The position numbers and the translations under genes are program-made. 64,000 nt of DNA from positions 62,001 through 126,000 of the forward strand of contig CASFVA010000036.1 in the NCBI GenBank assembly GCA_949298075.1, read 5' to 3'. Positions within the stretch are counted from its first letter, which is position 1. The number at the start of each line of letters is the position of its first letter. Below are positions 1,908-6,882 of the stretch, in pieces. A model generated the notes under the pieces. That model was not told the DNA's origin. It was given only the letters and a program-made list of their open reading frames with translations, and did not search any database. Source of the stretch: an uncultured Lentisphaeria bacterium (lineage in GTDB: Bacteria > Verrucomicrobiota > Lentisphaeria > Victivallales > Victivallaceae).

Positions 1908-1924
1908 AATTGAGAGATAGCAAT

Positions 1925-3349
1925 ATGCCAACTGGATTTATCAACCGGCGCGGTCCGGAATTGGATTTGCCTGAACAGCTTGTATGTGATTCCAGGCAGG
2001 CCGGCGTCGAAACCGGTTTTGTCGCTGTACGGAGCGGGCACGGATTTGTTGATGCGGCGGTGTCCGCTGGAGTCAGGGTGGTGGTGCACCAGGAGGAACT
2101 GCCGCACTATCTGCCGGGAGTTTGCTATTATCAGGTGGCGGACAGTGCCGCATTTTATGCCTGCTGGTGCCGTCAGGCCAATGCCTCTCCTGATGAGTCT
2201 CTGGATTTATTCGGAGTCACCGGCACCAATGGAAAAACCACCAGTGTGTGGCTGCTGGCTCACATACTCAATGCCTGCGGCCGCCCCTGCGGCTTGATTT
2301 CGACCGTGGAAATTCGAGATGGGTACGAGGCGGTGCCAGCTGTCGGAACTACTCCGGGCCCGGCTGAATTGTTTGCCCGGCTGAAAAAAATGTGCGAGCA
2401 TGGAATGACCGCCGCCGCGATGGAGGTTTCCAGCCATGCACTGGATCAGCGCCGGGCTGACGGTATTCGTTTCCGGACGGCAATTTTCACCAATCTCACT
2501 GGTGACCACTTGGATTACCACGGTGACATGGAAAACTATTATCAGGCCAAACGAAGGTTGTTTGCCGAGTTGCTCGAGCCGGTGAAAGGCCGGGCCGTCA
2601 TTAACATTGACGATCCCGGCGGTCGCCGGCTGGCGGCAGAGTTACCTCCGGACAAAGTGATTTCTTTCGGAACAGCTGGGGAGGCAATCTGGCGGATATC
2701 CGGGGTGCGGCTTTCGGATTGCGGAACAAAATTCACCCTGAGCTCCACGGAGCAAAGCCTGGAAATCAGTTCGCCTTTGATTGGAGAACACAACGTGTAC
2801 AATTTAACCGGGGTTGTCTGCGCGCTTCTGGATTATGGGCTGACCGGAGCGGAAGTGATCAGATCGTTGGAAATTCCGGTTGCGGTTCCGGGGCGGCTGG
2901 AACGTATTCAGGCTCCCGGCGGCGCGACTTTTTTCATTGATTACGCCCACACCGATGATGCATTGACCCATGTGATTGCCACGGTGCGGGCCATTGCCCG
3001 GGGAAGAGTCATCGTGGTGTTCGGAGCCGGAGGCGACCGTGATCGTTCCAAGCGTCCGCGCATGGGGGCGGCGGCCGCCGCCGCCGATGTTCTGGTGGTG
3101 ACCAGCGACAACCCGCGCAGCGAAGAGCCAACTTCCATTATCGCTCACATTATTGCCGGAATTCCGGAAGACAAACCGTTCCACATTTTTGTCGACCGAC
3201 GGGAGGCGATAGAATTTGCATTCCGGGAGGCCGGAGCCGGGGATTGCGTGTTGATTGCCGGCAAAGGGCATGAGGATTATCAGGAAATCAATGGAGTACG
3301 ACACCATTTCAGCGACCGGGAAGAGGTGTTACGCCTGCTGGGACAATGA
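1925..3349 (+). CDS. murE: UDP-N-acetylmuramoyl-L-alanyl-D-glutamate--2,6-diaminopimelate ligase
   Basis: MurE adds the third stem-peptide residue in the cytoplasm. The 474-residue protein has the N-terminal Mur domain with CDSRQ, the P-loop GTNGKTT near residue 99, the central-domain segments EVSSHALDQ and LTGDHLDYH, and DNPRSEEP near residue 395. The DNPR motif is the known marker of enzymes that add meso-diaminopimelate rather than lysine, which fits a Gram-negative wall. A TTG at 1910 is also in frame, but ATG at 1925 is preferred: it follows a purine-rich GAGAGA and the protein then begins at the usual family position. It is 17 bases from murF and 6 from the next gene. Confidence 0.94.
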   Translation: MPTGFINRRGPELDLPEQLVCDSRQAGVETGFVAVRSGHGFVDAAVSAGVRVVVHQEELPHYLPGVCYYQVADSAAFYACWCRQANASPDESLDLFGVTGTNGKTTSVWLLAHILNACGRPCGLISTVEIRDGYEAVPAVGTTPGPAELFARLKKMCEHGMTAAAMEVSSHALDQRRADGIRFRTAIFTNLTGDHLDYHGDMENYYQAKRRLFAELLEPVKGRAVINIDDPGGRRLAAELPPDKVISFGTAGEAIWRISGVRLSDCGTKFTLSSTEQSLEISSPLIGEHNVYNLTGVVCALLDYGLTGAEVIRSLEIPVAVPGRLERIQAPGGATFFIDYAHTDDALTHVIATVRAIARGRVIVVFGAGGDRDRSKRPRMGAAAAAADVLVVTSDNPRSEEPTSIIAHIIAGIPEDKPFHIFVDRREAIEFAFREAGAGDCVLIAGKGHEDYQEINGVRHHFSDREEVLRLLGQ

Positions 3350-3355
3350 TGAATT

Positions 3356-4414
3356 ATGTTGACCGATGAATTGGAAAAATTTCTTTTCGGTTTTTATGCA
3401 GCAAACGAATTTCCGGCGTTGCGTCGCCAAAGTCAGGAATGGCGACGGAAACGTCCGCTTGCCGGTGTGCGGATTCTGGATGGTACGCCGGTGTTCCGCA
3501 ATACCGTAGCCAAATACTGGGCGTTACTCAATGGTGGCGCCGGACTGACGGTCAGTGTCGGGGCCGGTATTCCCTGCGATGAGGACGTGGTCCGTCAATT
3601 GTCCGCCTGGGGAATTCCGGTGTTGCGGGGAGGCTGTGGGGCTGAAGGCGAGTTTGACGTGGTATGCGATTGCGCCGGAGCACATCGACGGATGCCAAGC
3701 CGGTTCGGCTATGTTGAATTGACCCGGTCAGGGTGTCCGCTTTACCAGAATTGCCGGCAGCCGGTATATGTGGCGGATGCCGGCCGTATAAAAATAATTG
3801 AAACCGCCCTGGGCACCGGTGATGGTATGCTGCGGGCTTTGGTTCAGCTGGGATACCGGGAGTTCAATGGTCGCTTGCTGCTGCTTTTCGGATGCGGTAA
3901 AGTCGGTCGCGGTGTTGCCTGGGCGTTTCGGCGGGCCGGAGCCGGTGTGGTGGTGGTGGATGATCCCGGTCTGATTTCTCCGCCGGCCGGAGTCGAGTTG
4001 ATCAGCCGGTTCGATCTGAAGGCAGTGCGGGCGGCGATTGCCGCTGCTGATGTCATTGTTTCAGCAACCGGCATCGGCGGCGCTTTGGCCGGCATCGCCG
4101 GAGAACTCGCGGCTTCCAGGGCGCTGATTGCAAATGCCGGAGTGGAGGATGAATTCGGAGCCGCTCTTCCTGAAGCGCGGGTGCTGAACCGCAAGGCTCC
4201 TCTGAATTTCATATTGGATGAACCCACTCACTTGAAATACATTGACCCGTCGTTGGCCTTGCACAACCACGGAGTGGTGGAGCTACTGCGGGGCGGGCTG
4301 GCTTCCGGACTCAATGTGCCATCCGCTGAGGTGGAGGATCAGCTGCTTGATATTTTGAAGGAGGATGGCGCTGTCGCTTCGGAATTGGAATACATTGATT
4401 TGGTTGCGGGGTAA
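3356..4414 (+). CDS. Divergent adenosylhomocysteinase-like NAD-binding protein
   Basis: The 352-residue protein aligns by eye along much of S-adenosylhomocysteine hydrolase (SAHH), but it is shorter than the usual 420-480 residues. The Rossmann NAD motif FGCGKVGRG sits near residue 177 at the place of the SAHH GYGDVGKG. NAGVEDEFG stands where SAHH has the NIGHFDxEI segment, and HLKYIDPSLALHNHG where SAHH has its HPSFVM...NQ segment. Several SAHH substrate residues appear changed: DDGGD becomes CDCAGA, SEETTTG becomes ELTRSG, and SKFDN becomes RIKIIE (the lysine may remain). It is therefore probably not a normal SAHH. It lies 6 bases after murE and 6 before a deaminase that can act on SAH, suggesting a linked role in handling SAH or a related nucleoside. 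Confidence 0.7.
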   Translation: MLTDELEKFLFGFYAANEFPALRRQSQEWRRKRPLAGVRILDGTPVFRNTVAKYWALLNGGAGLTVSVGAGIPCDEDVVRQLSAWGIPVLRGGCGAEGEFDVVCDCAGAHRRMPSRFGYVELTRSGCPLYQNCRQPVYVADAGRIKIIETALGTGDGMLRALVQLGYREFNGRLLLLFGCGKVGRGVAWAFRRAGAGVVVVDDPGLISPPAGVELISRFDLKAVRAAIAAADVIVSATGIGGALAGIAGELAASRALIANAGVEDEFGAALPEARVLNRKAPLNFILDEPTHLKYIDPSLALHNHGVVELLRGGLASGLNVPSAEVEDQLLDILKEDGAVASELEYIDLVAG

Positions 4415-4420
4415 TCAATT

Positions 4421-5701
4421 ATGCCGGATGTGCTGATCAGGAATGTTCAATTGGACGGGCGCGTTACCGATGTGCTGATTGCCGGCAATCGTTTTGCCCG
4501 GATCGCTCCCGGCATTGTCCCTCAGACGGAATGCCGGATTGTTGACGGCTCACGTCAGGCAATACTGCCGCCTTTCTACAATGCGCACACCCACGCGGCA
4601 ATGACTCTGCTGCGCGGGTACGCTGACGACCTGGAGTTGTTTACCTGGCTCAATGACTATATCTGGCCGGCGGAAGCACGGCTTTCCGAGGCGGATATCT
4701 ATGCCGGTTCCCGGCTCGCCATATTGGAAATGATCAAAACAGGGACTGTGTTTTTCAATGACATGTACTGGCATCAGATTGCCACGTTACATGCTGCCTG
4801 GGAAATGGGAGTCAGGGCAGCCATCGGCATGTTGGCGATCTGCGGTCCGGATGGAAAATTGCTGGACCGCAATCAGCAGGCCAATGCTGAGTTGCTTCGT
4901 GAAATTCATAAATTCTCCGACGGCAGACTCACGATCACCTGGGCTCCGCATTCGGTATATACTGTGAGTGAGCCGGTGTTGCGGCAGATTGCCGCAGAAG
5001 TGGAAGATGAGGGGCTGGTTCTGCACATTCATGCCTCGGAAACAGCCAAAGAGGTTTCCGACTGTCTCGAACAGCATGGCTGTACCCCGATTGTCTGGCT
5101 TAACCGGCTGGGGCTGTTGGGACCGCGGTCGATTCTTGCACACGGTTGCCATATCACCGATGAAGAACTGGAATTGGTGGCGGCCAGCAGGGCGGTGTTG
5201 GCCCATATGCCGATTTCCAACCTGAAGCTGGTCAGCGGCATCTTTCCATTGGAAAAAGCTGTTGTCTGCGGGTGTCGGGTTGCGCTGGGCACGGATGGAT
5301 GTTCCTCCAACAACAGCCTTTCCATGTTTGGCGAAATGAAGGCGGCGGCATTGGCGGCCAAATTTCTGACAGGAGATCCGACTTCCGGCAATGCGGACCG
5401 GATATTCAGGACGGCCACCCGGGGAGGGGCAGCCGCTTTCGGCATTGACGCCGGAGAGATTGCCGAGGGACGTCTGGCCGATGCCATGCTGATCGATCTT
5501 GATCATCACCTGATGGTCGGCGACTACAATCTGAAGGCCAATTTAGTTTATTCCGCCGACAGTTCTGTAGTGCGGACCGTGATTTGCAACGGCCGGATTC
5601 TGATGGAAAACCGCCACGTCCCGGGCGAAGCTGACATCGTTGCCGCTGCCCGGGAAGTATGTGAAAAACTGCGTCGTTCACATCATCCTGGGTCGCGCTG
5701 A
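4421..5701 (+). CDS. mtaD: 5-methylthioadenosine/S-adenosylhomocysteine deaminase family amidohydrolase
   Basis: The 426-residue protein is a metal-dependent amidohydrolase of the MtaD/TrzN class. Metal and catalytic motifs are visible in order: NAHTH near residue 54, HIHASE near 203, AHGCH near 240 and LGTDGCSSNN near 290. Family members deaminate the adenine ring of MTA, SAH, 5'-deoxyadenosine or aminodeoxyfutalosine; substrate cannot be fixed from sequence. ATG at 4421 follows the SAHH-like gene by 6 bases, so the two are probably made together. A deaminase plus an SAHH homologue resembles the SAH to S-inosylhomocysteine route known from methanogens. An alternative is aminofutalosine deaminase of menaquinone synthesis, but no other mqn gene is nearby. 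Confidence 0.85.
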   Translation: MPDVLIRNVQLDGRVTDVLIAGNRFARIAPGIVPQTECRIVDGSRQAILPPFYNAHTHAAMTLLRGYADDLELFTWLNDYIWPAEARLSEADIYAGSRLAILEMIKTGTVFFNDMYWHQIATLHAAWEMGVRAAIGMLAICGPDGKLLDRNQQANAELLREIHKFSDGRLTITWAPHSVYTVSEPVLRQIAAEVEDEGLVLHIHASETAKEVSDCLEQHGCTPIVWLNRLGLLGPRSILAHGCHITDEELELVAASRAVLAHMPISNLKLVSGIFPLEKAVVCGCRVALGTDGCSSNNSLSMFGEMKAAALAAKFLTGDPTSGNADRIFRTATRGGAAAFGIDAGEIAEGRLADAMLIDLDHHLMVGDYNLKANLVYSADSSVVRTVICNGRILMENRHVPGEADIVAAAREVCEKLRRSHHPGSR

Positions 5702-5763: not shown

Positions 5764-6882
5764 TCACTCGAAATCAAAATGGTAACGTTCAAGCCGGTAG
5801 AGATGCTTCAAGGCAATTATGTCCTGCTGCAGAGAAGCGTTTATCGGGATGCCGGTCTGTGAACGTTCGGTCATGGTCAGATATTCCTTTTCCCCGGCAG
5901 TGTATATCCGCCGGCAACCGGGAGCTTTGGCGGAGTTGCGCAATGCCCTTAAGATTTCGCCGGCGGTGTGCCTGAATTCTTCCAGACCGCAGAATGCCTG
6001 GGGGTCAATGACTATGAAAAAGTGGCCGAGATGATAAGGTTGCTTCCCGCCATCCCGGGAGCGCCCATACAATGCCTGCAAAAAAGCGCCCTGCTGCAGT
6101 GCCGCACACAAAATTTCAACTACGGTAGCATAACCATAGCCTTTGTAGCCTCCCAGTTCTTCACCGATTCCACCGAGCGGAGTCAGCGCCGCCTGGCCAC
6201 GCACCAGTGCCTCGAGTACCTCATGCGCATCAGTCATGGTATTGCCCTGTGGATCAATTACCCAGCCCGGCGGCAGAGGTTTGCCGATCCGGTCGTAGAC
6301 TTCAATCTTGCCGCGTTGCGAAACCGATGTGGCGCAGTCAAGCAGAAAAGGGAATGCTTCATCAGTGGGCATGGCAAACGTCAGAGGGTTGGTCCCAAGC
6401 ATGTTTTCCACTCCGAAAGTTGGTGCGATGGAAGGGCGGGCGTTGGTTCCGCTGATTCCAATCAGTCCCTGTTCGACTGCCATCAGAGGGTAATATCCGG
6501 CAATGCCGTAATGGCTGGAATTGCGAATTACCGCCATGGCCATGCCGAACTGCCGGGCCTGAGTGATCAGGTAGTTCATGGCCTCTCTTGAAGCGACCAT
6601 TCCCAAGCCGTCATGGGCATCGATCACGGCGCTGGTGGGACCGCGGCGTACAAATTCCACGTCAGTTACCGGATTGACCACGCCATCCCGGATGCGATCA
6701 ACATAGATCGGTTTCAGGCGGCTGATGCCGTGAGAATCTATGCCGCGCAAATCGGCGGCAATCAACACATCAGAACAAAATTCCGCGTCAGCGGCTGGAA
6801 CCCCCGCCGCCGAAAGCGCATCGGCCATAAACGACTTGAGGACAGCGGCTGGAACATGGTGAACTGTTGCGGACATGACCAT
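5764..6882 (-). CDS. Malate/L-lactate dehydrogenase family (Ldh2/YiaK-type) oxidoreductase
   Basis: The roughly 370-residue protein belongs to the Ldh2 family of NAD(P)-dependent oxidoreductases, which act on 2-oxoacids or 2-hydroxyacids such as malate, ureidoglycolate, sulfolactate or diketogulonate. Characteristic segments are AADLRGIDSHGISRL near the N terminus, RNSSHYGIAGYYP mid-protein, GTNPLTFAMP, and GYKGYGYATVVE. The family assignment is clear; the substrate is not. Two starts compete: ATG at 6882 (4 bases after an AAAGGAG ribosome site) and ATG at 6876 (10 bases after it). It converges on the deaminase with 62 bases between stops, so it is a separate unit. Confidence 0.88.
   Translation of the reverse strand: MVMSATVHHVPAAVLKSFMADALSAAGVPAADAEFCSDVLIAADLRGIDSHGISRLKPIYVDRIRDGVVNPVTDVEFVRRGPTSAVIDAHDGLGMVASREAMNYLITQARQFGMAMAVIRNSSHYGIAGYYPLMAVEQGLIGISGTNARPSIAPTFGVENMLGTNPLTFAMPTDEAFPFLLDCATSVSQRGKIEVYDRIGKPLPPGWVIDPQGNTMTDAHEVLEALVRGQAALTPLGGIGEELGGYKGYGYATVVEILCAALQQGAFLQALYGRSRDGGKQPYHLGHFFIVIDPQAFCGLEEFRHTAGEILRALRNSAKAPGCRRIYTAGEKEYLTMTERSQTGIPINASLQQDIIALKHLYRLERYHFDFE

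Follow-up and report, generated by a model that had tools for sequence, protein, structure and literature searches.

Gene organization of the locus

The window analysed here, 64,000 nucleotides from an uncultured Lentisphaeria bacterium, is part of a 2.33-Mb draft genome that is 87% complete. Near its start, four forward-strand genes follow one another with gaps of 2-6 bases: murF (positions 537-1907), murE (1910-3349), a gene for a 352-residue homologue of S-adenosylhomocysteine hydrolase (SAHH; 3356-4414) and mtaD, which encodes a 426-residue MtaD/DadD-type amidohydrolase (4421-5701; PF01979, 2.3e-63). The SAHH homologue has an altered active site, and the reading frames, coordinates and gene order are those given in a preliminary description of this DNA. 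A malate/L-lactate dehydrogenase gene (Ldh_2; 5764-6882, reverse strand) is convergent with mtaD and shows no sign of membership in the pathway discussed below. No riboswitch was found within the window or in ten loci around carriers of the SAHH-like gene.

The two genes are neighbours in many relatives, so the preliminary description withstands the refutation that it had set for itself; outside the Lentisphaerota they are usually non-adjacent. In one relative (G033, L046:2380-4638), a gene for a 752-aa lipoprotein-like product stands between them. The position directly behind murE, previously regarded as unexpected, is real. In several genomes of the same genus that carry mtaD together with a purine-nucleoside phosphorylase (PNP), murE is followed directly by mtaD and the SAHH-like gene is absent, so that a single syntenic position is occupied by the latter in some genomes and empty in others. 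Because mtaD follows murE even without the SAHH-like gene, the arrangement is best described as a lineage-specific operon; murE provides operon context outside the proposed pathway, and a functional link to the mur genes was rejected on this ground. The SAHH-like gene likewise follows a Mur ligase gene at a few loci of other Lentisphaeria (L068, L070, L074), which was judged to be operon hitch-hiking. Outside the Lentisphaerota, no common partner was found among the neighbours of the SAHH-like gene. In one Fibrobacter MAG (L101:8001-10032), metF (MTHFR) lies immediately downstream, a possible link to methionine metabolism that is only suggestive.

Fold and family of the SAHH-like protein

The relationship to SAHH is detected by a single-sequence phmmer match to 7r39 (E 8.6e-09) and by a family profile match (E 3.6e-20). 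Structure prediction agrees: the AlphaFold model has a pLDDT of 94.7, and only SAHHs appear among the best 50 PDB matches listed, mostly with a TM-score of about 0.7-0.78 to the query. The protein nevertheless falls below the cut-offs of the curated SAHH model TIGR00936 (45.1 against 497.6 bits) and of PF00670 (23.1 against 27 bits), while PF05221 gives no match at E 1. Compared with AhcY, with which it shares the overall fold and the NAD-binding Rossmann domain, it has about 20% identity and only 352 residues instead of about 430-490, with a C-terminus shortened as in archaeal SAHHs.

The motifs by which the fold had first been recognized fare less well than the fold itself. FGCGKVGRG (residues 178-186; 3887-3913, forward strand) is the NAD loop of Rossmann domains in general, NAGVEDEFG occupies the position of the GHF gate of SAHH, and the SAHH-like family does not conserve the histidine of HLKYIDPS. 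The family has its own signature, NFxLxEPT (residues 284-291; 4205-4228, forward strand). More than 40 invariant columns are common to 30 members from the order, and most of these residues recur in 80 further loci, taken from public genomes of Lentisphaerota, Verrucomicrobiota, Fibrobacterota and Bacteroidota. The protein can therefore be placed with high confidence in a well-conserved, uncurated family that is distinct from both SAHH and S-inosylhomocysteine hydrolase (SIHH). This family of gut-bacterial enzymes is a previously unnamed, distant relative of the SAH-recycling enzyme, and no earlier description of it or of the route proposed below was found in the literature searched, which took in few subscription papers.

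A selectively altered active site

Active-site residues were mapped by profile alignment (hhalign) to two references, human AHCY and the AhcY of the organism itself, and two alignment methods agree on K146 and E149. In SAHH, Lys186 acts with NAD at the 3′-OH, while His55, Asp131 and His301 act at C4′ and C5′ (PMC4647836). The first of these sites persists in the SAHH-like family: K146 and E149-T150 (3791-3805, forward strand) are the counterparts of Lys186 and Asp190-Asn191, which oxidize and reduce the 3′-OH, and are kept or conservatively replaced. K146 is identical to Lys186, E149 is a conservative substitution for Asp190, and these two residues are invariant, as is D141 at the place of Asn181.

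The other sites differ, and the residues that replace them are in turn invariant or nearly so. On the forward strand, the segment P45-V-F47-R-N49 (3488-3502) stands where SAHH has its nucleobase motif HxTxQ/E and where the hypoxanthine-preferring SIHHs have HxExK, so that P45 replaces His55 and F47 and N49 replace the base-contacting Thr57 and Glu59; P45 and N49 are invariant across phyla. The same is true of D105-C106 (3668-3673), in which C106 aligns with the catalytic Asp131. E121-L122-T123 (3716-3724) takes the place of E155-E156-T157, with L122 for Glu156, and V263-E264-D265-E266 (4142-4153) lies at the His-Phe molecular gate of SAHH (PMC10978960), with V263 and E264 for His301 and Phe302.

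The claim that most adenosine-binding and catalytic residues are lost thus stands in part, since the changes are real and fixed in the family but the loss is selective and spares the catalytic lysine. Retention of the Lys/NAD site together with replacement of His55, Asp131, His301 and the base contacts means that the redox half of the site has been kept, whereas the half serving elimination and addition has been rebuilt, as has the base pocket.

The same replacements could also be read as the decay of an SAHH paralogue that is now dead or regulatory, or as the mark of a generic NAD-dependent dehydrogenase unrelated to 5′-methylthioadenosine (MTA), any pattern in its distribution being a lineage effect. 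Generic Rossmann families do match the SAHH-like family about as well as AdoHcyase_NAD. Such an origin is improbable, as the invariant positions cluster in the putative substrate motifs and most are kept across four phyla, and it also sits poorly with the presence or absence of the gene at a syntenic locus and with its repeated switching on the AhcY tree, opposite to that of phosphorylases.

The paired deaminase and the fate of SAH

The best NCBIfam match of the MtaD protein is NF004701, below the cut-off of that model, and its nearest solved structures are MTA/SAH deaminases. The preliminary description had noted intact metal motifs, and alignment with TM0936 bears this out. The HTH metal-binding motif (4586-4594, forward strand) aligns with H55/H57, and the ligands H55, H57, H200, H228 and D279, together with E84, H173 and E203, are kept throughout the alignment of paired proteins, with one exception at most. 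The positions of R136 and R148 of TM0936, which we take to be its contacts with the homocysteine carboxylate, are mostly occupied in the paired MtaD family by L/M and D/E.

An SAHH homologue next to a deaminase of this type recalls the route of Methanocaldococcus, in which SAH is deaminated to S-inosylhomocysteine and then hydrolysed by SIHH, itself an SAHH homologue acting after a DadD/MtaD-type enzyme. This archaeal two-step route is established (PMC10978960), and the preliminary description had looked to it as a precedent. For the present pair, such a function is very unlikely. About 29 kb upstream, the contig also carries an intact ahcY with a 492-aa frame, which answers the question of whether a second, canonical SAHH exists, and ahcY was found in 95 of 100 relatives and in 20 of 25 other carriers. 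SAH recycling is hence not the job of the SAHH-like protein, and a route replacing AhcY was rejected. In addition, the SAHH-like protein has neither the HxExK motif nor the gate, the arginines of TM0936 are replaced in the paired MtaD, and the phyletic pattern described below follows the enzymes of MTA and 5′-methylthioinosine (MTI) rather than ahcY. What survives of the earlier reading is its broader part, namely that an SAHH homologue was rebuilt for another substrate and is functionally tied to the deaminase. Three genomes that are 94-97% complete (G094, G006 and G009) have no detected ahcY; MtnN-like genes are found instead in two of them, and G094 carries mtaD together with the SAHH-like gene.

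A role in menaquinone synthesis, in which MtaD would deaminate aminofutalosine and the SAHH-like protein would be a futalosine-cleaving enzyme of an unusual type, is least probable of all. The futalosine pathway occurs in some carriers and aminofutalosine deaminases belong to the same deaminase superfamily, but PF02621 (MqnA/MqnD) is absent from the organism's own genome and present in only 11 of 25 carriers elsewhere. This role was rejected because carriers without MqnA/MqnD exist.

Complementary distribution with MTA-cleaving enzymes

The SAHH-like protein, MtnN, MTAP (with a model that also detects class II PNP), mtaD and MtnA were searched for in 99 relatives. The SAHH-like gene occurs with mtaD in 37 genomes, MTAP alone in 33, mtaD with PNP in 10, MtnN alone in 6 and mixtures of conventional enzymes in 7, while 6 genomes have none of these. 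All 37 carriers of the order have mtaD, and none of them has an MTA phosphorylase, a class II PNP, MtnN or MtnA, DeoD-type phosphorylases and other nucleosidases lying outside this search; a phosphorylase or nucleosidase is present in 56 of the 62 non-carriers. Without the SAHH-like gene, mtaD is found almost only alongside PNP. Completeness is 54-80% in the six genomes of the last category, and MtnA is present in four of these (G052, G067, G082 and G089), suggesting that their phosphorylase is simply unassembled.

The mutual exclusion of the SAHH-like gene and a phosphorylase or nucleosidase gives a Fisher p of 2.8e-21, uncorrected for phylogeny. A tree of AhcY from 81 genomes implies about 10 changes in the state of the SAHH-like gene, 5 of them forced by supported branches, and the phosphorylase or nucleosidase goes the opposite way in all five strictly supported independent pairs (p = 0.0625, from five pairs only). 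On an mtaD tree, the switch between the SAHH-like gene and PNP requires four changes, two of them forced. Among 40 further carriers, mostly from other phyla and covered for MtnN but not for MTAP and MtnA, MtnN above the cut-off is absent in 39, the exception being G114. Most carriers outside the Lentisphaerota have mtaD elsewhere in the genome.

The neighbours of the alternative enzymes indicate what this slot is. The PNPs of the genomes with mtaD and PNP are purine-nucleoside phosphorylases by NCBIfam, and in five genomes (G011, G014, G024, G027 and G035) the gene is divergent beside mtnA, which ties PNP to MTA salvage. In another genome (G013, L116:4305-4624), mtnA is present as broken fragments only, beside an intact PNP gene. 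MTAP is divergent beside a class II aldolase in G034 and G043, a neighbour expected for a DHAP-type shunt. These linkages identify the slot as MTA/MTI consumption.

A proposed two-step route

The phyletic and positional evidence, from which the substrate is deduced, indicates that the SAHH-like protein probably fills the MTA/MTI slot after MtaD, consuming MTI and perhaps 5′-deoxyinosine. That it does so by some NAD-dependent cleavage is somewhat less secure, though still favoured. MtaD would first deaminate MTA to MTI, as its family and linkage suggest, and possibly also 5′-deoxyadenosine to 5′-deoxyinosine. Bound NAD+, with Lys146 and Glu149, would then oxidize the 3′-OH of MTI in the manner of SAHH; the 3′-ketone would let the 5′-methylthio group depart as methanethiol, and addition of water followed by reduction of the ketone would yield inosine. 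As His55, Asp131 and His301 are lost, new acid/base groups would be needed and the 5′-elimination half of the SAHH reaction cannot simply be copied. The invariant Cys106, at the position of the C4′ acid/base Asp131, is a candidate for such a group, as are the invariant N49, E121 and E266.

This route would replace MTA phosphorylase, MTA/SAH nucleosidase, or MTI phosphorylase with MtnA. As it would yield no methylthioribose-1-phosphate, it fits the loss of MtnA, and it is also in keeping with the retained Lys/NAD chemistry. The inferred physiological slot is that of MtnP and MtnN, from which the SAHH-like protein differs in fold and chemistry. Deamination of MTA before cleavage is known from Pseudomonas aeruginosa, where an MTA deaminase precedes an MTI phosphorylase, the slot filled by PNP in the sister genomes; in contrast, the second step here would fall to an unrelated, NAD-linked protein of the SAHH fold with no MtnA downstream. 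Cleavage of the C5′-S bond itself is the most parsimonious option but is proposed tentatively, at somewhat less than an even chance. A little more doubtful still is the full scheme, a new methionine-salvage shortcut from MTA through MTI to inosine and methanethiol by C5′-S cleavage, which would skip methylthioribose-1-phosphate and operate in anaerobes of the gut and rumen from four or more phyla.

Against C-S cleavage is the consideration that such an enzyme would not handle 5′-deoxyinosine, which conventional MTA-cleaving enzymes can handle too. The main chemical rival is N-glycosidic cleavage, in which an NAD-dependent nucleosidase for 5′-modified inosines would occupy the same slot: after 3′-oxidation, removal of the C2′ proton would eliminate hypoxanthine from C1′, and methylthioribose or 5-deoxyribose would be excreted. 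Such an enzyme would accept both MTI and 5′-deoxyinosine, like those it replaces, and it would need the retained lysine for 3′-oxidation and not the lost residues, which act at C4′ and C5′. Nucleobase release is a side activity of canonical SAHHs (PMC10978960), and E. coli excretes methylthioribose (PMC6302742). Excretion would make the absence of MtnA compatible with this chemistry, and the MtnN-only genomes of the present set also have no MtnA. Homology, on the other side, favours the C5′ thioether. We know of no family close to SAHH with nucleobase elimination as its main reaction. Sequence alone cannot choose between the two bonds, although the glycosidic one is the somewhat unlikely choice.

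The order of the two steps could also be reversed, the SAHH-like enzyme converting MTA to adenosine and methanethiol and MtaD then deaminating adenosine. MtaD-type enzymes have a broad substrate range, and some Rikenellaceae or Alistipes-type carriers have no clear mtaD, which counts against MtaD acting first, as deamination may not always precede cleavage. Reversal is nonetheless improbable, given that mtaD accompanies the SAHH-like gene without exception in the order and also pairs with PNP, an enzyme of oxopurine nucleosides, which implies an MTI intermediate there. The carriers concerned (loci L050, L051 and L080 of genomes G102, G103 and G113) have the SAHH-like gene and weak amidohydrolase matches only, and may use MTA directly or rely on another deaminase.

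Implications for MTA clearance

MTA and related 5′-deoxynucleosides inhibit polyamine, methylation and radical-SAM enzymes, and cells need to clear them. Victivallis, Akkermansia glycaniphila and Fibrobacter are among the carriers with no recognisable MTA nucleosidase, and carriers of the Victivallis order additionally have neither MTA phosphorylase nor MtnA. How MTA is cleared in such carriers appears to be undescribed, and the SAHH-like protein with MtaD is a concrete candidate: the enzyme and its adjoining deaminase probably form a new two-step MTA disposal. The route may represent a new source of methanethiol in the gut and rumen and, if true, would mean that a very conserved enzyme fold has been re-purposed with its redox half-reaction retained.
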